This document shows positions 3,122-20,200 of a stretch of DNA of 28,241 nucleotides, piece by piece. The translations under genes were made by a program, and so were the position numbers. Source of the DNA: a virus; IMG/VR virus record IMGVR_UViG_3300046655_000409, positions 1-28,241 of that record; one strand, written 5' to 3'. Positions within the stretch are counted from its first letter, which is position 1, and each line of letters begins with the position of its first letter. Below the pieces are notes generated by a model, which made no database searches, was not told where the DNA came from, and worked only from the letters and a program-made list of their open reading frames with translations.

Positions 3122-6100
3122 TTGGCAGAAGAAATTGAAATTGGTAATTTTGGCAAAGGGGGTGTTGCTAGTGAAGAAACGTTAAAGGATCTTCTCAAAG
3201 CAATTGAGCATCTTGCTAAAAAAGAAGGATTCGACCCTAAAAAGTCAGCAGATAAAGCAAAAAAGCTTGCAGATGCTTTTGATAAAGGTATTGACGTTGT
3301 AACTGACCATAGAGATGCACTAAATGAAAATACAAAGTCTGTAAAGCGTAATACAAGTGTACTAAGCAAGAGCTTAGGTGTACTTGGAGTTGGTATTGTT
3401 GCTATAGGTACAAGTTTAAGTAATTTTACTAAGGAACTTATCGATGGCGGCAGTAGTTTAACTGATTTTACAAAGCATATACCGATATTTGGTAGTACTA
3501 TTGCAGGGTTAACTGGATATTTTGACGATACTCTAGACAGTTTTAGAGAAATATCCCGTGTAGGCGGTTCAATGGGCAACAGTTTAGAAGAAGTAAGACG
3601 CAGTTCAGCTCAATTGTTTATGACTTTAGATGAATTTACAGGATTTGTTAAAGGAAATTCTAAAGAGTTGTCAACATTTGGTGGAACTGTTACACAAGGT
3701 GTGCGCAGAGTTACTGATTTGCAAAAAGCACTAGACGAAACTACACGTAATCAGCTTTTAAATATGGGTTTAACATTTGAAGACATCAACGAGTCACTTA
3801 TGAGATATGCTATACTTGACAGAGCAGGGTCAAGGACTAGACAAATAAATGATGCTCAGCTTGCTTTAAATGCAGCAAGTTATGCTAAAAGTTTAAGCAC
3901 ACTTTCAAAATTAACAGGTGAAGAAATAGATTCACTTGAAGCAAAAGCTGCTGCTAATCAAAATGATGTTGCTTTCCAAATGGCAATGTCTAAAATGGAT
4001 AAAACTGAAAGAGAAAAAGTTCGTGCTGGTATGGCTGAAGTTGCTGCTCTATACGGCGATACTGGAGCAGAGTTTTATAAACAGCAAATATTAGGTATAG
4101 GTCCTGTAACTGATGCAACTGCTATGTTAGCAGCAGGGCTTCCGGGTATTGCAGAACAAATAAAACTTACAGCCGCATTAACAAGAGATGCAAATACTGA
4201 TATGGAATCTTTTGAATCAGGGTCAATTGATAGATTTGTAGCAGGTGTTAAGGCAGCAGCAGCATCTTCAGATGATTTAGAGGGGTTATTAACAGTTGCA
4301 GCCGCAGGCATGGACGGGCCTGGTAAAGAATTAGCATTAATTTTACAATCTATGGGCAAGAATTTTACTGATTATATGGATAACGGTATTTTTGACGAGA
4401 AAAGATTAAGAGATGATCTTGAAAACGCTAAAAAAGAATCTAATTCTAGAGACGGTACAACGAATGCGTTAGTTACTTTTAATCAAGCTATCAAGAATGC
4501 AAGAAAAGAAATTACAGAAAACTTTATTGATAGTGGAGTGTTTAGTACAATATCAGAATCAGTAGAAAGTGTTGCAAGTTTACTAGGATCTGAAGGACTT
4601 ACTACTGCACTAAAAGATATAGTAATAGGTATTACTGACTGGACTGAAAGTTTTATTACTACCTTGAACATTGACGGATTTAAATCAGCAATGGATATGT
4701 TGTGGACAGATATTACGCAAGTGATTAAAGATTTCTTTATGGGTGTTACTGCTGATGAACAGAAACAAAGAGCGTTAGATGATAAAGCTAGAGTTGAATC
4801 TCAACTTTTAAAAGTTTTAGATAAACAAAATGAACAAGTGCAAATACTAACATCTTCAACAGATAATAAAACAATAGCAAAAGCGGCAGAAGAACAAGCA
4901 AGATTAGAAAAACAATACCAAATACTTGAAGAAAAGAAAGCATCTCTAAATAAAGAACTAGAGAAGGATCAGTATGTAGACAAAGACGGCGCACTATCTT
5001 CAATAGGAAGTATAATTAAAGATTCAATTGACGGAAGTTTACTTAACATTAAGCCATTTAAAACAAATGAAGCCGGTCAAACAGAAGATGGGTTACTTCT
5101 TAGTGCCGAGACTAAGGCAGCTATTAATAATCTATTTGGCGAAAACGGTACATTAATGGACGAAGTTGGAACAGTTATTGTAGCTGGGTTTACTGGTTTG
5201 TTTCTACTTCCAGCTGTTGTATCAGGTGTAGCAGCAGGAATTACAGCAGGACTTGGAACAGCATTAGCAAGCGCATTCTCAGGAAGTGGAGGACTACCTT
5301 CTGGGTTAGAAGAATTTACAGGTAAAGATGGAAAAACAAGAGTAAGAGATAAAACATCTAAAAAAATAGCAGCGGATCCAAGAAAACTTAAAGCACCGGC
5401 AGGCACTAAATTTCTAGAAGGATTTGGCAAAGGCGGCTTATTGGGCGGCGCAGCTAGAGGACTATCAGTTTGGGGAAGCCCTGTTGGAGCAAAGGCAGTA
5501 ATAGGTGCTGCTGCTCTTGGAGCAGCAATAGCTGCATTAGCAACAGGTATAGGTGCAGGCGTATGGGTACTAGGAGAAAGTTTTGGTACATTTTCTGAAA
5601 ATATGAAAAAGTTTGAAGACTTAAACGGAGAAAAATTAAAAACAGTAGGTCAAGGTATGAGAGCTGTAGGCTTAGGTATAGGCACACTTGGAGTAGGTAA
5701 AGTAGCAGACGGTTTAGGAAACTTTATACAAGGCATAGGCGGCTTCTTAGGAAATCTATTTTCAGTTGCTAGTGGTAAGGGAACACAAAAATCAACTTTT
5801 GAGTTACTAGAAGAATTCCAAGGTATGGACATTGATAGTGCTACTATTAAAACAAAAGCAGAAGCACTACAAGCATTTGCAACAGGAATGAATACGCTAG
5901 GAGCAGGTTTAAAATATGAAGGCCTAGCAAACTTTTTTGACGGGGTATCGAGTTTCTTCTTTGGACAAGATACAGATCCATTTAAAGAAATTAAAGAATT
6001 TGGATCTACAAAATTTGAAAGCAAGTTTCTTGAAAATAATTTAAAAGTATTAGAATCATTTAGTACAGGCATGAGCACATTATCTCAAGTTAATAATGGC

Positions 6101-6583: not shown

Positions 6584-8329
6584 ATGTCTTGGAAAAAATA
6601 TTTTACACCAGTACCGACTGTAAATAACCCTAGCGGAAGTTATAGTCCATTCAGTAATCGCAATTCTGGTAGTATGCCCGGACCTGCTAGATCAAACTAT
6701 TCAAGTTATTTGCCTGATGTATATGTTGGTACACCTAATCGTGTTGAACGTTACGGTCAGTACAACACAATGGATCTTGATTCAGAAGTTAATGCTGCAT
6801 TAGATATCCTTGCAGAGTTTTGTTCTCAACTTAATGAACAAAACGGTACACACTTTATAACTGAATTTAATAAAAAGGCAACAAATACTGAAGTTACAAT
6901 ACTTGCACAATATCTAAAGCAATGGTGTAAGATACAAAAATTTGATACACGTATGTTTAGAATACTACGAAATGTATTCAAGTATGGCGATCAGATCTTT
7001 ATTAGAGATCCCGAAACTAGAAAATGGTTTCATACTGATCCGTCTAATGTAACAAAAATTATTGTTAACGAATCAGAAGGCAAAGTTCCTGAACAGTATG
7101 TTGTAAAAAACTTTAATGTAAATTTTGTAGATATGGTTGCAACAACTCCGTTCGATACCAACGGTAACGTAACAGGTGGCGGCAGCGGACATCTAACTGG
7201 CGGTGTTAGAGGAATGGTTGGTAATAATCCAACTAACAACGGCAACCGTTGGCAAAATGAAGAAAATGAAATTACAGTCGATGCAAAACATGTGGTGCAT
7301 TTAAGTTTATCAGAAGGCTTAGATAAAAATTATCCGTTTGGTAATTCACTACTGGAAACTGTATTTAAAGTATATAAACAAAAAGAATTACTTGAAGATG
7401 CGATTATTATCTATCGTGTTCAACGTGCTCCTGAGCGCAGAGTATTCTACGTTGATGTGGGTAACATGCCATCACACCTTGCTATGCAATTTGTGGAGCG
7501 TGTAAAGACCGAAATTCACCAAAGAAGAATCCCATCGGCGACTGGAGGAGGGCAAAATGTCATAGACAGTTCTTATAATCCTCTGTCAATTAACGAAGAC
7601 TACTTCTTTCCACAAACGGCTGAGGGCCGTGGTTCTAAAGTTGAAACATTACCAGGTGGAACTAATCTAGGAGAAATTGATGACCTTAGATACTTTACTA
7701 ACAAGTTAGTCCGAGGCTTGCGTATTCCTTCAAGTTATCTGCCTACTGGTGCAGATGATGCAAGTAGTCAATATAACGACGGTAGAGTAGGAACAGCATA
7801 CATTCAAGAATTAAGATTTAATACATATTGTGAACGTTTACAAGGGTTAGTTGCAGAGCAGTTTGATACTGAGTTTAAACGTTATGTATTAGAAAAAGGT
7901 GTAAACATAGATACAAATATGTTTGAACTTAAATTCCAACCACCGCAAAACTTTGCAAGTTATAGACAAAGTGAAATTGATAATGCACGAGTGCCTACAT
8001 ATACACAAATGGCAGCACTACCTTATATTTCAAATAGATTTGCTCTTGATAGATTCTTAGGCTTGTCAGCTGAAGAGATTGCAGAAAATGAACGTCTATG
8101 GCGTGAAGAAAATGAAGAAACACTTGAACCAACAGCAACTGACGCAGGTGGTGAAATGCGTGGCGCTGGTATAAGCGGCGCTGGCATAGAAGGTGACTTA
8201 GGTGGGATTGAAGATGTAGCTGATGATGGCGAAGCACCGATACAAGGCTCAGAAGGTGATTCACCTGAAACTGCAACAGGCGATTCGCCAATGCCAGGCG
8301 GCGGAGCAAATGCTGAGCAAACGATATAA
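6584..8329 (+). CDS. gp20: Portal vertex protein of head (gp20)
   Basis: This is a 581-residue protein (T4 gp20: 524). Conserved portal segments are plain: NTMDLDSEVNAALDILAEF near residue 60, HVVHLSLSEGLDKNYPFGNS and LLETVFKVYKQKELLEDAI, then IYRVQRAPERRVFYVDVGNMP, VERVKTEIHQRRI, a DYFFPQTAEGRGSKVETLPGG segment, and LVRGLRIPSSYLPTG. These define the dodecameric ring through which DNA enters and leaves the head and which starts prohead assembly. The last 60 residues are a Gly/Glu/Asp-rich acidic tail absent from T4, like those of marine relatives. It lies 12 bases after the tape measure gene, with AAGGAAAAC before the ATG. Its stop codon lies inside the next late promoter. Confidence 0.97.
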   Translation: MSWKKYFTPVPTVNNPSGSYSPFSNRNSGSMPGPARSNYSSYLPDVYVGTPNRVERYGQYNTMDLDSEVNAALDILAEFCSQLNEQNGTHFITEFNKKATNTEVTILAQYLKQWCKIQKFDTRMFRILRNVFKYGDQIFIRDPETRKWFHTDPSNVTKIIVNESEGKVPEQYVVKNFNVNFVDMVATTPFDTNGNVTGGGSGHLTGGVRGMVGNNPTNNGNRWQNEENEITVDAKHVVHLSLSEGLDKNYPFGNSLLETVFKVYKQKELLEDAIIIYRVQRAPERRVFYVDVGNMPSHLAMQFVERVKTEIHQRRIPSATGGGQNVIDSSYNPLSINEDYFFPQTAEGRGSKVETLPGGTNLGEIDDLRYFTNKLVRGLRIPSSYLPTGADDASSQYNDGRVGTAYIQELRFNTYCERLQGLVAEQFDTEFKRYVLEKGVNIDTNMFELKFQPPQNFASYRQSEIDNARVPTYTQMAALPYISNRFALDRFLGLSAEEIAENERLWREENEETLEPTATDAGGEMRGAGISGAGIEGDLGGIEDVADDGEAPIQGSEGDSPETATGDSPMPGGGANAEQTI

Positions 8330-10588: not shown

Positions 10589-11209
10589 ATGAACAACTAT
10601 TTACGAGAGCATTTGACATTCGATCAAGCACAAATTGTGCTTGAGAATGCCAACGAAGGCAAAGATCTTTATATGAAAGGTATTTGCATTCAAGGTGACG
10701 TCCGAAACGCTAATCAGCGAGTATATCCTGTTGCAGAAATAGGCAGGGCTGTCAAAACGCTCAACGATCAAATCCAAAACGGATTTACCCCTCTCGGAGA
10801 GGTTGATCATCCAGATGGCTTAAATATTAACCTAGACCGTGTATGTCTCATGATTGAAAGCATGTGGATGGACGGTGCTAATGGTTATGGAAAACTAAAA
10901 GTATTACCAACTCCGATGGGACAACTAGTTAAAACTATGCTTGAAGCAGATGTTAAACTAGGTGTTTCGTCAAGAGGAGCAGGTGAAGTTGACAGCAACG
11001 GTAATGTTGCTGACTTTGAAATTATCACTGTGGACGTTGTGGCTCAGCCCAGCGCCCCCGGTGCTTACCCAACACCAATCTACGAACAATTATTAAATGC
11101 TCGTGGGGGTATGAAGGCATATGAACTAGCACAGGCAACAAAACACGATGACAAGGCACAAAAATATCTTAAGGAATCGCTGATTAACATAATCAGCAAA
11201 CTCCAATAA
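10589..11209 (+). CDS. gp21: Prohead core protease (gp21)
   Basis: The protein is 206 residues (T4 gp21: 212). Conserved serine-protease segments of the phage prohead protease family are present: NANQRVYPVAEI near 40-51, PLGEVDHPDG with the candidate catalytic His at residue 74, GYGKLKVLPTPMG at 99-111, LGVSSRGAGEV with the candidate nucleophile Ser at 127 or 128, and DFEIITVDVVAQPSAPGA at 142-159. It cuts scaffold, core and capsid proteins after LxE/IxE sites so that DNA can be packaged, and then removes itself. It lies 17 bases after the acidic core gene and 14 before gp22. The Shine-Dalgarno is weak, so coupling to the gene before it is likely. Confidence 0.95.
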   Translation: MNNYLREHLTFDQAQIVLENANEGKDLYMKGICIQGDVRNANQRVYPVAEIGRAVKTLNDQIQNGFTPLGEVDHPDGLNINLDRVCLMIESMWMDGANGYGKLKVLPTPMGQLVKTMLEADVKLGVSSRGAGEVDSNGNVADFEIITVDVVAQPSAPGAYPTPIYEQLLNARGGMKAYELAQATKHDDKAQKYLKESLINIISKLQ

Positions 11210-12331: not shown

Positions 12332-13513
12332 ATGTCGGAACTACTAGAAAGTCGCTGGCAGGATACGAAAACAGCACTTCTTGAAGGCCTAGGTGGCAAC
12401 AAGAAAAGCGTAATGGCAGCAACATTAGAAAATACTCGCAAGTATCTTTCAGAAACTGCTACAGCTGGTGCTACATCTGCCGGTAATGTCGCAACACTAA
12501 ACCGTGTAATCCTTCCAGTGATTAGACGTGTTATGCCAACAGTTATAGCTAATGAGCTAGTTGGTGTTCAACCTATGACTGGACCAGTTGGTCAAATCCA
12601 CACACTAAGAGTACGTTATGCAGATAGCATTTCTACAGGTGGTGGCACAGACGTAACAGCTGGCGAAGAGGCTCTAAGCCCATTCAAAATTGCTGAAGCT
12701 TATTCAGGAAACGAAGGTAACCCAGGTACTGCTGATGTAACAGCAGCTATGGAAGGTGTTGCTGGTAACAGAATGAGTATTCAAATCTTGAAACAAACTG
12801 TGGAAGCAAAGTCACGCAAGCTATCAGCTCGTTGGACTTTTGAAGCAGCTCAAGATGCTCAGTCACAGCATGGTATTGATGTTGAAGCAGAAATAATGGC
12901 TGCTCTAGCACAAGAAATTACTGCTGAGATTGATCAAGAAGTTTTAGCTTCTTTAGCTTCACTAGCTGGCACTGCGGTTGAAACATACAACCAAGCAGCA
13001 GTATCAGGTACAGCTACATTTGTTGGTGACGAACATGCAGCACTTGCAGTTCAAATCAACCGCGCATCAAACCTAATCGCTCAGCGTACACGCAGAGGCG
13101 CAGGTAACTGGGCAGTTGTTTCACCATTCACACTTACACTTCTACAGTCAGCAACTACTTCGGCATTTGCTCGTACTACAGAAGGTACTTTTGAAGCACC
13201 AACAAACACTAAAATGGTTGGTACACTAAACAACGCAATGAAAGTATATGTAAACACATATGCATCAGATGCATCACCAGTACTTATTGGGTACAAAGGT
13301 ACAAGCGAATCAGACGCAGCAGCGTTTTATTGCCCGTACATCCCACTAATGAGTTCAGGTGTTGTTCTAGATCCAGGCACATTTGAGCCAACAGTATCGT
13401 TCATGACTCGTTATGGATATGTTGAGCTAACAAATACTGCTTCGTCTCTAGGTAACGCAGCTGATTATCTAGCAAAAGTTGCAATTGATAATTCAAATGT
13501 AAGCTTTAGCTAA
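12332..13513 (+). CDS. gp23: Major capsid protein (gp23)
   Basis: AAGGAG at 12321-12326, overlapping the gp22 stop, gives a strong ribosome site as expected for the most abundant virion protein. At 393 residues it is shorter than T4 gp23 (521). Typical segments are LNRVILPVIRRVMPTVIANELVGVQPM and GPVGQIHTLRVRY near 55-95, KSRKLSARWTFEAAQD near 155-180, and the C-terminal SFMTRYGYVELTN region. The sequence KYLSE followed by TATAGAT at residue 41 fits the LxE cleavage rule of gp21, so the mature subunit likely starts at Thr42. The missing length compared with T4 would lie mostly in the insertion domain, judged from length only. A strong terminator lies 24 bases downstream, ending the operon. 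Confidence 0.97.
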   Translation: MSELLESRWQDTKTALLEGLGGNKKSVMAATLENTRKYLSETATAGATSAGNVATLNRVILPVIRRVMPTVIANELVGVQPMTGPVGQIHTLRVRYADSISTGGGTDVTAGEEALSPFKIAEAYSGNEGNPGTADVTAAMEGVAGNRMSIQILKQTVEAKSRKLSARWTFEAAQDAQSQHGIDVEAEIMAALAQEITAEIDQEVLASLASLAGTAVETYNQAAVSGTATFVGDEHAALAVQINRASNLIAQRTRRGAGNWAVVSPFTLTLLQSATTSAFARTTEGTFEAPTNTKMVGTLNNAMKVYVNTYASDASPVLIGYKGTSESDAAAFYCPYIPLMSSGVVLDPGTFEPTVSFMTRYGYVELTNTASSLGNAADYLAKVAIDNSNVSFS

Positions 13514-13536
13514 GTTTTAGTTAACACAGATAAAGG

Positions 13537-13562
13537 ATAGGCGCTACGGCGCCTATTTTTTT
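13537..13562 (+). terminator. Strong intrinsic terminator after gp23
   Basis: A perfect 8-bp stem ATAGGCGC/GCGCCTAT closes on a TACG loop bounded by C and G, an extra-stable UNCG-type tetraloop. Seven Ts follow (13556-13562). It ends capsid-operon transcripts and insulates the RNA gene behind it. Confidence 0.93.
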
Positions 13563-13584: not shown

Positions 13585-13612
13585 TTGACATTGTCTGTAG
13601 AGATGTTATATT
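13585..13612 (+). promoter_or_regulatory. Sigma70-type promoter with extended -10
   Basis: TTGACA at 13585-13590 is a perfect -35 box. TATATT at 13607-13612 is a near-perfect -10, the spacer is 16 bases, and TG at 13604-13605 makes it an extended -10. Predicted start is near 13619-13620. It is unlike every other promoter in this window, which are late-type boxes without a -35. Confidence 0.85.
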
Positions 13613-13618
13613 AGTTAC

Positions 13619-13834
13619 ATAACGAAGACGACGGTTTACGTTAGATGGTGACTGAAGCGATGTCGGTAGACGGCATCAAGGTAATGTAGAAGAACCTTAG
13701 CGGGTTAGTTTAGCGACTGCATACATGTTCCGGGTTTATTGCACGAGTCTACTTGTGCCCGGTTGAAGGTAATAAGTAATTCCTTCCTATCACATTATAA
13801 AAGGCCTGTTCTTAACTGAGCAGGTCTTTTTTTT
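13619..13834 (+). ncRNA. Structured non-coding RNA of about 215 bases, family not recognised
   Basis: The region lies between a strong sigma70-type promoter and a strong intrinsic terminator and holds no credible reading frame. In order, it can form TAACG/CGTTA (13620-13643), GATGTCG(GTAGA)CGGCATC (13659-13677), AAGGT/ACCTT (13678-13698), and a long stem-loop. In the last, CCGG pairs with CCGG around a 7-base bulge and GCACGAG(TCTA)CTTGTGC (13730-13762). The terminator stem follows. It does not look like a tRNA (no T-loop GGTTCRA pattern), a tmRNA or 6S RNA as far as I can tell by eye. A host-type promoter would allow transcription before the phage late switch. It could be a trans-acting small RNA targeting host or phage mRNAs, a protein-sequestering RNA, or a cis element of the packaging or assembly region. 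Which of these it is remains unknown. Confidence 0.8.
13802..13834 (+). terminator. Strong intrinsic terminator of the RNA gene
   Basis: GGCCTGTTC (13803-13811) pairs with GAGCAGGTC (13818-13826), including two G-U pairs, around a TTAACT loop; flanking As pair with the first Ts. Eight Ts follow (13827-13834). The last T is also the first base of the next late promoter. Confidence 0.92.
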
Positions 13835-13841
13835 ATAAATA
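13834..13841 (+). promoter_or_regulatory. T4-type late promoter TATAAATA fused to the terminator T-run
   Basis: An exact TATAAATA followed by C. The predicted start is base 13847, one base inside the ATG at 13846, with no Shine-Dalgarno; the transcript would be leaderless or start at the adjacent A. Confidence 0.75.
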
Positions 13842-13845
13842 CATC

Positions 13846-14250
13846 ATGCAGGATGAATATGTATCTGCATTTTACGATGTAGTACAAGAAACCAGACAAC
13901 ATACTGGTATTGAGTTACCAGAATCTATTGAGCACTATGTGGTTATCCTTTTAGCGAGCCATATGGATAAAACAGACTTTCTTCCTAATAACTCATTTGC
14001 ACAAACATTTTTACAAATGACTCGCACTAGTGATGCTAAAACTCTCGGCGATACATGTTTATTTGTAACAGGTATATTTCCTAATTATGGTATTGATGTA
14101 AATTATTATTCAGATATAGGTAAAACTAGTTATAGCACCGTTGCTAATACACTAAATGGCGAATTATTTTCTACTTTAAGCGTACATTTTGACATTGTTA
14201 GAGATTTTATAAATTGTATTCCTAACAAACGAGATAAATACTTAGTCTAA
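13846..14250 (+). CDS. Unknown late protein of 134 residues
   Basis: The sequence holds MQDEYVSAFYDVVQETRQHTGIEL, a helical YVVILLASHMDK segment at about 27-38, SFAQTFLQM, and GDTCLFVTGIFPNYGIDVNYYSDIGKTSYSTVAN at about 65-98. From memory, bacterial conserved hypothetical proteins share a 'GD..LF..G.FP...........YY...G...Y' pattern; I cannot name the family or a function, and treat the resemblance as weak. There is no signal peptide or membrane segment. The gene stands alone between the RNA-gene terminator and the next late promoter, which lies inside its own last codons. Late expression therefore follows from context, but whether it is a virion protein is unknown. Confidence 0.75.
   Translation: MQDEYVSAFYDVVQETRQHTGIELPESIEHYVVILLASHMDKTDFLPNNSFAQTFLQMTRTSDAKTLGDTCLFVTGIFPNYGIDVNYYSDIGKTSYSTVANTLNGELFSTLSVHFDIVRDFINCIPNKRDKYLV
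14233..14240 (+). promoter_or_regulatory. T4-type late promoter GATAAATA inside the 3' end of the preceding gene
   Basis: GATAAATA followed by C, one mismatch from consensus. Predicted start is near 14246, giving a 69-base leader to the ATG at 14315. Confidence 0.65.
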
Positions 14251-14314: not shown

Positions 14315-14773
14315 ATGGGAAGACCATTAAACAAACGACTATTTGCAGATGCTACTACAGGCCCAGGTGCCGGCGATGAAATTAAAGTAAACTTTCACGA
14401 CGGAGCTGGAGTAAAAGAAGGCTTTATTGTAAAACAAAAAGGATCTAAAAGATTTGTATGTTCAGAAACAGGAACATCTGATACTGTTCATACTTGTGTA
14501 CTAACAACTGGTAAACTACCAGCAGCACTAGTAGCAGGCGAAATGTCAATATCATTTAAAATGGATGATGAAGAAACATACACAGTAAGTAAAATTGCTG
14601 GACGTAAAGCTACATTGTCAGCACCAAGTGCAACAGGGTCAAACGCATATGACGGCGCAAGCGTAGCATGGAACTTTGCAACATCACTAGCAGACGGCGC
14701 AGCACAAGTTGAAGAAGCTGGTGCAGATGACATTGCTAACTTAGATGATGATGATTTCACTGAAGACGCATAA
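14315..14773 (+). CDS. Putative virion structural protein (MGRPLNKR type)
   Basis: This 152-residue protein begins MGRPLNKRLFADATTGPG and continues with a beta-rich middle: EIKVNFHDGAGVKEGFIVKQ, then KGSKRFVCSETG, then GEMSISFKMDDEETYTVSKI. It ends in a strongly acidic tail (DDIANLDDDDFTEDA). Proteins with this start and with KQKGS-x-RF-V segments occur, as I recall, in cyanomyovirus virions, but no precise role is known. A good Shine-Dalgarno (AAGGAGAAAAC) resembles that of the acidic core gene. It leads a run of at least five genes with gaps of 14 bases or fewer, so it is probably made in step with the fibre and tail genes. Confidence 0.7.
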   Translation: MGRPLNKRLFADATTGPGAGDEIKVNFHDGAGVKEGFIVKQKGSKRFVCSETGTSDTVHTCVLTTGKLPAALVAGEMSISFKMDDEETYTVSKIAGRKATLSAPSATGSNAYDGASVAWNFATSLADGAAQVEEAGADDIANLDDDDFTEDA

Positions 14774-17217: not shown

Positions 17218-20200
17218 ATGGCTGTAGGGCGTATTTCAGGTCAGGTCTTGAAGAGTGAGTTATCACGAGATGGAGTTGATGTATTTTTTAACAACGAGAA
17301 CGGAGACCCCGCATTATTATATCTATCAGTAGACGACAGCAGAGTTGGAATTAACAACAGTTCGCCAAATGCTGATTTTGATATTACCGGAGAACTAAGA
17401 AGTACAACTGCAATATTTCAAACTAGCTTACAAGTAGCTGATATCTTTATGGATACTACAACTATCAGTACTACTAGTGGAAATTTAGTTCTTACTCCTG
17501 CAACTTCAACAGACGAAATACAACTTAATAGTGATGTAACTACATCAGCAAACTTAACAGTAGATAACAATATAACTTCTACTAATGGAACTATTACTGC
17601 ACCTAATATTGATATCGGCCAAGTTAGTATAACTGAAGACGGCGCTGGTAATACAACTATTACAGCTAGTGCAGGCGGCATTGTTGTTACTGCTGGTAGT
17701 GGCGAAAGTATAGATTTAAACAACGATGTAAACATTGACGGAGATTTATCTGTAACGGGAAGTACACAAATTGATATCAATCTAAATGTTGACGGCATAG
17801 TAAGTACTCCGCAAGTAGATACAGGTAGAGTTGAGATTGACGAAAATATGTTACTCAATCAAAACACTATACAGATACTTTCTAATGATACTGATTTAAG
17901 ATTACAAGCAGGACCGATAGGTACTGATCCTTTTGGAAATCCTAATGAAGACACACAAATTAGACTTTTAAGTAAAACAACTATTATTAAAGGACTAAAC
18001 ATTCTTGGCACTGATGCGTTTATTAATATTGATGATAAACTTTTAATTGACGATAATACTATTTCTAGTGTTACTAATGATATCGACATTTCAGCTGGTG
18101 CAGGTGATAGTACGTCAGTTGCTAATTTAAATTTAACATCAGCAATTGATACAAATATTACTGCTACTGACGGCGACATTAATATTAGTACACAAGGAGA
18201 TGATAGTACTGTACATTCAATTAACTTTTTAGGTACAACTATAACCTCAGAGCCTGCTGTGTTTAGAGATTCAATTAAAGCTGAAGTTGAAGTTGATGTT
18301 CCTGATTTAAGAGTAGAAAGAATTGGCAATAGACCTAATGACGGAGATATACAAATTACCTCTAGAGATAGATTAGGTGTTGAAACTACGTTTATTGATT
18401 TAGTTGGCAGAACAGAACTTATAGGCGATTTTACACAAGCAGACGGATTTGATATGTTCCTTGACAGACTTGATGTAAACAATATAAGAATTGACGATAA
18501 TAGTATTACTACTACAAGCGGAAACTTGTTTATTAATCCTACTGACGGAAGTATTGTTGACATAGGTAAAGATGTCAACATAGCTACACAGGTTACAGTA
18601 CCGGATGTAATTTCAACAAATAGTATCCAAGGTGTACTAATGGATATTGATAACATTCAAATAGACGGTAATGAAATTAAATCTACTAGTGGACATATAA
18701 ATGTTTATACTCCAACTCCTGCTACTGACTTTGTAAATATTTTTACTAACTTAGAAGTAGACGGTAACATTCACGCTACTGGTTCAATTACTGCTGATGG
18801 TGATTTAGTTTTAGGTGATCAAAATACAGACAATATTACTTTTAATGCAGATGTAAACAGCGATGTTCTCCCAAATATAAATGCAATATCATCTTCTCCC
18901 GACTCAACTGCTGTGATAGGTTTTGATTTAGGTTCTGAAACAAAATATTGGGATACAATGTATCTTAGACATTTTGACTTAAATGGATATGAAGTAAGAG
19001 ATGTTAATAACGATCATTCTACATATTCTGCATCAGCAGCTAAAGATGTAAACTTAATTACAGAAGGCGGCATGATTAGATATTTTGAAGAAAATCTTGC
19101 TACTAACCGAGGTGATAACATTCCAATGGGCTTTCCGGAGGATAGTGTTTATAACGACGGAGCATTTTTTCTAAGTGCTAATACAGAACAAAATGGTGTA
19201 CCTAAAGAAGATATTATTGACGACAAAACTTTTATTGCAGAAGCAATTGACTTATTAAACGAGTCTATGAATAATATTAGAAACAATACATTTATTAGAG
19301 ATATTGATGCTGCTACACCGGCACCGGCAGCAGCAGGTAGTGGCCAAACATTTACACTTAATTTAAATGTAGACGGTGAATATAATAGAGTAGAAGTTGA
19401 CTGGGATGTAAACAATAGATTTGAATATATTAAATCTCTTATCGAAGGTGCTGGCGGAACGTATAATGTTCCATCAGGCGCACATGATAGTGTATATGTA
19501 GGAACTAATCCGTCTACTGTATCTTTTGTTTATGATGCTCCGCTAGGGGGCTTGTTTACTGTAAAAGTTACAGTAAGAAATACAAATGCTCAAGTTCCTG
19601 GCAGTGCAGGCACCGATAGTGATTTACTACAAGAAAATTTAATTCTAGTTTACACACAAGATCCAGTAATGGGATATAATTTATACAGAAGTACAAGCGG
19701 CGGAAGTATACTTTCAGGAAATAATCTATATGTTATAGAAGGTAATTCTTTAGCATTAGAAAACATAACAACTAACACAGGTCCTGATTACGGTTTAGAT
19801 AACACAGTTACATATACTGTAAACTGGGGTGACGGAATTACTGAAACAATTACACCAGACGATACTGAAGATGGTGGATCAGGAGGTCCTAGACTTGCAC
19901 ATACATGGCTAGACGGAACACAAACAGGAACTGGTAATAGTACTGTAACATTAACTATGACAGATCATCAATCATGTGATCCAAATATTCTTCCTTTAAG
20001 TACATCTAAAACTTTGAAAGTATATGAAAATGATCCTGTTGATCCTGATGGCCTAAGTACTAAAACTATTTCATTTAGTGGCGGCACTGGTAATGCTAAC
20101 CTTTGTGCAAATTTTACTAACAATGATGTAAATTTAGCAACTAGTTCTGTTGCAGGCACATCGCTTCCGAGAACTGTATCAACATCAGGTACAATTAAAA

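Follow-up and report, generated by a model that had tools for sequence, protein, structure and literature searches.

Is the structured RNA that lies behind the capsid gene of a marine T4-like phage a gene in its own right, or is it the leader of the gene that follows? The DNA analyzed here (the window, 28.2 kb at its full length) is a piece of the head and tail region of such a phage, in which the portal, head maturation protease, and major capsid genes were recognized by PHROGs (table 1). The preliminary description of this DNA had proposed that a structured RNA gene, free-standing and served by a host-type promoter, lies behind gp23. We found that this proposal was borne out by a conserved promoter and terminator, compensatory base changes, varying neighborhoods, and an empty site in a relative. 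The stretch behind the capsid gene is thus strongly supported as a real stand-alone RNA gene.

The Transcription Unit in the Window

The promoter before the RNA has the TTGACA, the 16-nt spacer, and the extended −10 that had been reported, with 11 of 12 matches to a sigma70-type site. No other site in the window combined 11/12 or more matches with an extended −10, and Markov shuffles of the entire window contained a mean of 0.05 such sites. The statement that all other promoters were of the late type was nearly right: T4-type late motifs, (T/G/C)ATAAATA, were present at seven positions (plus strand, 3060, 8325, 13834, 14233, 17089, and 23224; minus strand, 9600), and the one other sigma70 site with 11/12 matches, at 18461, is without the TG and within a 1511-aa ORF. 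The transcript start at 13619 is an estimate from the promoter position, 7 nt past the −10. Both the separate terminator that cuts off gp23 and the RNA's own terminator with its eight Ts were found again by a terminator scanner. The RNA's terminator is followed by a late promoter and then by the 134-aa ORF, which had no PHROG match and looks leaderless. Further on, a sub-threshold match to the freshwater-2 RNA (RF02980; 14254-14317, 38.5 bits vs. a cut-off of 49.9, E = 2.4e-4) is placed as the leader of a 152-aa ORF at 14315, and full freshwater-2 matches occurred in three relatives (L004, L005, and L060).

Table 1. Features of the window around the RNA, with the capsid-region genes upstream
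Feature	Position	Strand	Evidence or remark
Portal gene	6584-8329		Upstream of gp23
Head maturation protease gene	10589-11209		Upstream of gp23
gp23 major capsid protein gene	12332..13513	+	PHROG 138 major head protein, E 1.4e-98; upstream neighbor of the RNA
gp23 intrinsic terminator	13532..13561	+	Terminator scan
Sigma70-type promoter, TTGACA-16-TATATT, TG-extended −10	13585..13612	+	11/12 matches
−35, TTGACA	13585-13590	+	Sequence
Extended −10, TGTTATATT	13604-13612	+	Sequence; spacer to −35 of 16 nt
Predicted transcript, divergent manA RNA with terminator	13619..13834	+	Fold z −2.75; RF01745 match; R1 match
P1, 5' hairpin, UAACG-A-AGAC, loop GACG, GUUU-A-CGUUA	13620..13643	+	Sequence, MFE
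P2, long-range closing helix, 5' strand GAUGG	13644..13648	+	Pairs with 13787-13791
P8, arm CCGG...CCGG, inner stem GCAC/GUGC, loop GAGUCUACUU	13730..13762	+	Sequence
Pseudoknot strand UACUU in the P8 loop	13750..13754	+	Complement of AAGUA 13774-13778
P9, hairpin GAAGG/CCUUC; loop holds pseudoknot strand AAGUA 13774-13778	13765..13786	+	Sequence
P2, closing helix, 3' strand CUAUC	13787..13791	+	Pairs with 13644-13648
Intrinsic terminator of the RNA	13799..13834	+	Stem 13799-13830, eight T 13827-13834; terminator scanner
Late promoter, T4-type, TATAAATA, for the next gene	13834..13841	+	Motif
134-aa ORF, downstream neighbor	13846..14250	+	ORF

Family Identity and Fold

At the gathering threshold, Rfam gave no match in the window, and neither a tRNA nor a tmRNA was found. 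A permissive Rfam scan (401 nt) aligned the manA model (RF01745, positions 1-192 of 192) with 13621-13796 at 44.3 bits (E = 2.6e-10), the runner-up having an E value of 0.02. The score falls below the RF01745 gathering cut-off of 55.2 bits, which is an annotation rule and not a structural feature. Among 50 contigs with a related gp23, RF01745 matched 18, once each; five were above the cut-off (top score, 79.9 bits), and the above-cut-off relatives in other gp23-neighbor contigs scored 55.5-79.9 bits. We also built a model, R1, from 46 uncultured-phage sequences, leaving out the window's subtype and all Rfam sequences. R1 matched the window at 13620-13794 (58.5 bits, E = 4.7e-17) and recovered 17 of the 18 cyanophage-type manA copies tested, with E values up to 3e-7; these were P-SSM2, P-SSM4, ACG-2014f, and 14 of 14 further copies (12 cyanophage records and two genome-assembly contigs). 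The copy of S-CREM1 was missed, though RF01745 scores it at 96.6 bits, and R1 gave no match in Syn9, S-PM2, and S-RSM4. Moreover, the groups were bridged by intermediates (L011, L030, L032, L036, L042, L073, and L080). Considering the full-length RF01745 match, the two-way recovery by R1, and these intermediates, membership of the window RNA in the manA family is secure despite the sub-cut-off score. Since the RNA is to be called manA, the earlier view that it belonged to no known RNA family was wrong by that description's own test, a search against Rfam; it was a remote member, found by the permissive scan.

On the same comparison, the window RNA is a short, divergent manA subtype. It shares with RF01745 the 5' hairpin, the closing helix, the conserved junction residues, the 3' hairpin, and the position of the pseudoknot, and full-length models matched in both directions. 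It differs in its length (175 nt vs. about 205 nt in the common type, the difference being a reduced central domain), in its sub-cut-off score, and in being a separate transcription unit and not a 5'-UTR element. In 15 cyanophage genomes, RF01745 gave a single match above the cut-off per genome, and manA-type RNA was single-copy in the genomes checked. Neither the window RNA nor one common relative had a BLAST match among phage isolates; thus, DNA similarity alone would miss the manA family. A 16-base manA core gave 75 hits in 84,980 genomes. A cellular origin of manA was considered and rejected: of 27 of these genomes scanned with RF01745, two matched, and both matching contigs are probably phage. 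One copy is in a 189-kb contig of the Prochlorococcus single cell AG-418-C09 (L355), and the other in a 15.7-kb contig of the marine MAG SP107 (L356), which has a late-type promoter motif and an ORF that we take, by eye, to resemble a 2OG-Fe(II)-oxygenase. The contigs are cyanophage-like, and these two "cellular" GTDB genomes probably contain phage DNA.

The 216-nt RNA had a predicted folding energy of −66 kcal/mol, compared with a mean of −53.4 for shuffled sequences (z = −2.75). The "four hairpins" first described were a rough picture. That the RNA is structured was confirmed, but in the fold that evolution supports, a 5' hairpin is joined by a long-range helix that closes the RNA, by several inner helices, and by a pseudoknot between two loops. 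Compensatory base changes in related phages, on which the preliminary description had made its reading depend, were abundant. In the 46-sequence alignment, double changes occurred in 38 of 56 pairs and 94.9% of cells paired; the covariation score was 0.462, compared with 0.193 in shuffled alignments (0 of 500 reached 0.462) and at most 0.12 with the partners slid. In alignment A2, all five pairs counted in P1 varied on both sides, and the strongest covariation was in the outer helix of P8. The pairs of P9 also varied on both sides across relatives. Family-wide, 49 of 52 pairs showed double changes, including all five pairs of P2, in an alignment that was fitted to the model and so leans towards it. 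Another alignment, A1, placed the P-SSM2 row wrongly and was left out of the counts. The loops of P8 and P9 were complementary in 45 of 70 distinct relatives (shuffled mean 17, maximum 30), a count that must allow for a shift of the pseudoknot strand by one column in some groups; the pseudoknot is apparently truly missing from six sequences of one group (L043-like).

Promoters, Terminators, and Neighborhoods of the Relatives

Relatives were gathered by pattern and by gp23 neighborhood, which yielded 82 distinct complete sequences, P-SSM2 among them. For the promoter test, 105 unique loci were chosen by the RNA core motif and not by promoter. Of these, 94 had a sigma70 site with 10 or more of 12 matches, compared with 1.4% of 697 shifted control positions; its distance from the core was nearly constant (35-37 nt in 97 of 105), and the TG was found in 80. 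The 13 stand-alone cyanophage-type copies all had sigma70 sites of 10-12 of 12, seven of them perfect. In 7 of these 13, the upstream terminator and the promoter were fused, the −35 lying inside the terminator hairpin. Fused sites, with TTGACA within the terminator hairpin and the terminator's T-run as the promoter spacer, were seen in P-HM1, MED4-213, S-SSM5, P-RSM4, P-RSM6, P-TIM68, P-SSM2, and the MAG contig L356.

A terminator followed the RNA within 95 nt in 59 of the 82 relatives. Under this limit 23 were without one, and several of these run on into further conserved RNA. Terminator stems began 8-14 nt past P2 in 47 of 49 distinct terminators (one at 24 and one at 66). A late-type promoter motif occurred within 200 nt of the RNA in 67 of 82 relatives, and in most relatives a late promoter stands after the RNA.

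The neighborhoods were diverse. gp23 was located within 1.2 kb upstream in 65 of 82 relatives, a share that is inflated, as part of the set was fetched via gp23. The RNA was present in 24 of 68 gp23 contigs, most of which are fragments, so absence from a contig does not mean absence from the phage. The RNA lies directly behind the capsid gene in P-HM1, S-SSM5, P-RSM4, MED4-213, and MbCM1 (annotated as gp24 in MbCM1). These five resemble the window in position and in having a sigma70-type promoter with TTGACA at the 5' end of the RNA, but their RNA is longer, and in the first four the −35 lies within the gp23 terminator hairpin, whereas in the window the two are separate. Elsewhere, manA was found behind pstS (P-SSM4 and P-SSM3), between regA and purL (P-SSM2), before gp32 (P-HM2), behind ferredoxin (petF; P-SSM7), before talC (P-RSM6), and followed by an opposite-strand gene (P-TIM68). 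In two of these, about 15-30 nt lie between the end of the RNA and the start of purL (P-SSM2) or talC (P-RSM6), with no separate hairpin terminator.

In S-CREM1, ACG-2014f, S-B43, and RN05-S, manA stands in a tRNA array, a few bases away from the tRNA gene on either side, and a tRNA-Gly follows the RNA in one uncultured relative (L044). The four tRNA-array copies belong to the same family by RF01745 or R1, but no promoter of their own was seen beside the RNA, and they would have to be cut out together with the tRNAs. The T4 tRNA cluster contains stable non-tRNA RNAs of unknown function beside its tRNAs. Compared by description only, these are similar in being phage-made, in lying beside tRNAs, and in belonging to a T4-like phage.

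At the site of the window itself, one relative (L222) carries the common RNA type and another (L010) carries no RNA. In the latter, gp23 is followed after 70 nt by a homolog (83% identical) of the 134-aa ORF, and the identical late motif precedes it at equal spacing. Since L010 has the same neighbors without the RNA, the RNA is, on this comparison, a removable cassette at the site.

Other RNA elements were observed nearby. A glutamine riboswitch aptamer (RF01739) was found behind gp23 in L004 (6048-6095, 50 bits) and was recognized there by eye in L006, L007, L056, and L080; it stands either ahead of the manA-type RNA or in place of it. About 40 nt 3' of the manA-type RNA, a second conserved and apparently structured RNA was found with the core CACCAGAGTAGATGCACC, closed by a helix of the GTGTTTTAGTATACAC/GTGTATACTAAAACAC type whose strands vary in step (e.g., L263, about 2455-2560). 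All 18 contigs bearing this core also hold manA-type RNA (L154, L206, L221, L257, L263, and 13 more), and the second RNA had no Rfam match in the two contigs scanned. Some 100 nt past this RNA, 10 contigs carry a third conserved element (TCCGAACTGTAACAAGAAAGGA...; e.g., L154:4023, L206:10246, L221:8660, and L357:9012). The arrangement of these elements behind the manA-type RNA suggests a noncoding RNA operon.

Gene or Leader, and What the RNA May Do

Were the RNA a cis-acting leader or riboswitch, its fold would sense something and control terminator read-through into the next gene. The Rfam type of manA is Cis-reg, the copies just before purL and talC are compatible with a leader there, and Weinberg et al. 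(2010), who described the family in association with mannose, nucleotide, ibpA, and photosynthesis genes and already suspected the pseudoknot, drawing it with a question mark, rated it as cis-regulatory and likely a riboswitch (PMC2864571). The cis-regulatory assignment was met throughout the searched literature (PMC2864571, PMC9964418, PMC12197685, and PMC7657543), the label being repeated in phage annotation papers and in a 2025 review; no paper treating manA as a separate gene was found in that literature, a search which most subscription journals lay beyond. Nevertheless, the terminator stems overlapped the P2 closing helix in 0 of 49 cases, and an antiterminator search found no excess complementarity between terminator and RNA (6.4 vs. 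6.8 shuffled). Thus, no switch is visible, and none of the 49 terminators forms an expression platform that excludes the aptamer, as it would in transcriptional switches. Transcription restarts at late promoters after the RNA, copies lie between tRNAs, before an opposite-strand gene, or among changing neighbors, and the empty site keeps its downstream gene. Judged by position, the window RNA is not in the 5' UTR or cis-regulatory location of the family description. Based on position, own promoter, own end, and the lack of a visible switch, a cis-regulatory leader is unlikely as a general rule.

A base-pairing small RNA, directed at mRNAs of the host or the phage and folded chiefly to be stable, would fit the size, the sigma70 promoter, and the terminator. 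We regard it as quite unlikely, considering that nearly the entire RNA is a covarying fold with junction and loop residues conserved across phages of different hosts, and that no single-stranded seed both long and conserved was seen. The phi29 packaging RNA is of similar size, and a capsid- or packaging-associated RNA of that kind would agree with the place behind gp23 in the gp23-enriched set of relatives and in the five cyanophage records. It is very improbable, as other genomes place the RNA away from head genes (gp32, pstS, petF, and tRNA arrays) and many close relatives, mostly fragments, are without it at the gp23 site. A short protein-coding gene deserves next to no credit: compensatory base-pair changes occur throughout, length changes are not multiples of three, and the ORFs annotated over the RNA (T4-GC 428, 524, 569, and 570) differ between records. 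These small ORFs overlap manA in P-SSM4 (PSSM4_169.1), S-SSM5 (SSSM5_127), P-HM1 (PHM1_121), and P-HM2 (PHM2_011/012), and the hypothetical proteins are probably spurious.

We therefore favor, with a probability of roughly three in four, a free-standing noncoding RNA gene that is transcribed by the host polymerase and acts in trans. Under its principal sigma factor, the host RNA polymerase would transcribe about 215 nt from the RNA's own promoter. The body of the RNA would be closed by the long-range helix and locked by the loop-loop pseudoknot, and the transcript would stop at its own terminator, insulated from the late capsid genes on both sides. In the infected cell, this stable, structured RNA would most likely work in trans by binding a partner of host or phage origin. 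Our first guess for this candidate partner is the machinery of translation or of RNA processing, since the RNA adjoins tRNA genes in some phages. Transcription by the host polymerase is what we infer; the promoter type suggests an early or continuous timing, and the argument for action in trans is one from position.

What is new here is the apparent stand-alone gene status of the family, not the family itself. An orphan riboswitch candidate since 2010, manA has been filed for sixteen years as a gene-leader switch, and it appears to have been misfiled as cis-regulatory. The window subtype extends it to many uncultured T4-like phages missed by the Rfam cut-off. For the family as a whole, we find the arguments evenly balanced on whether it may form a new functional class of structured RNA, encoded by phages and acting in trans, which the host polymerase makes as soon as infection begins, which is cut from tRNA precursors in some phages, and which is sometimes joined with further undescribed RNAs in one noncoding operon. 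P-HM2 carries manA (4771-4969) and infects a cultured host, Prochlorococcus MED4, and RNA-seq of this infection exists (PMC5082946); the read counts of spurious ORFs over manA in published RNA-seq are a possible proxy for the RNA. If manA is truly a separate RNA gene, hunts for a ligand via the downstream genes would have been misdirected, and the question would become the trans role of a widespread marine phage RNA.
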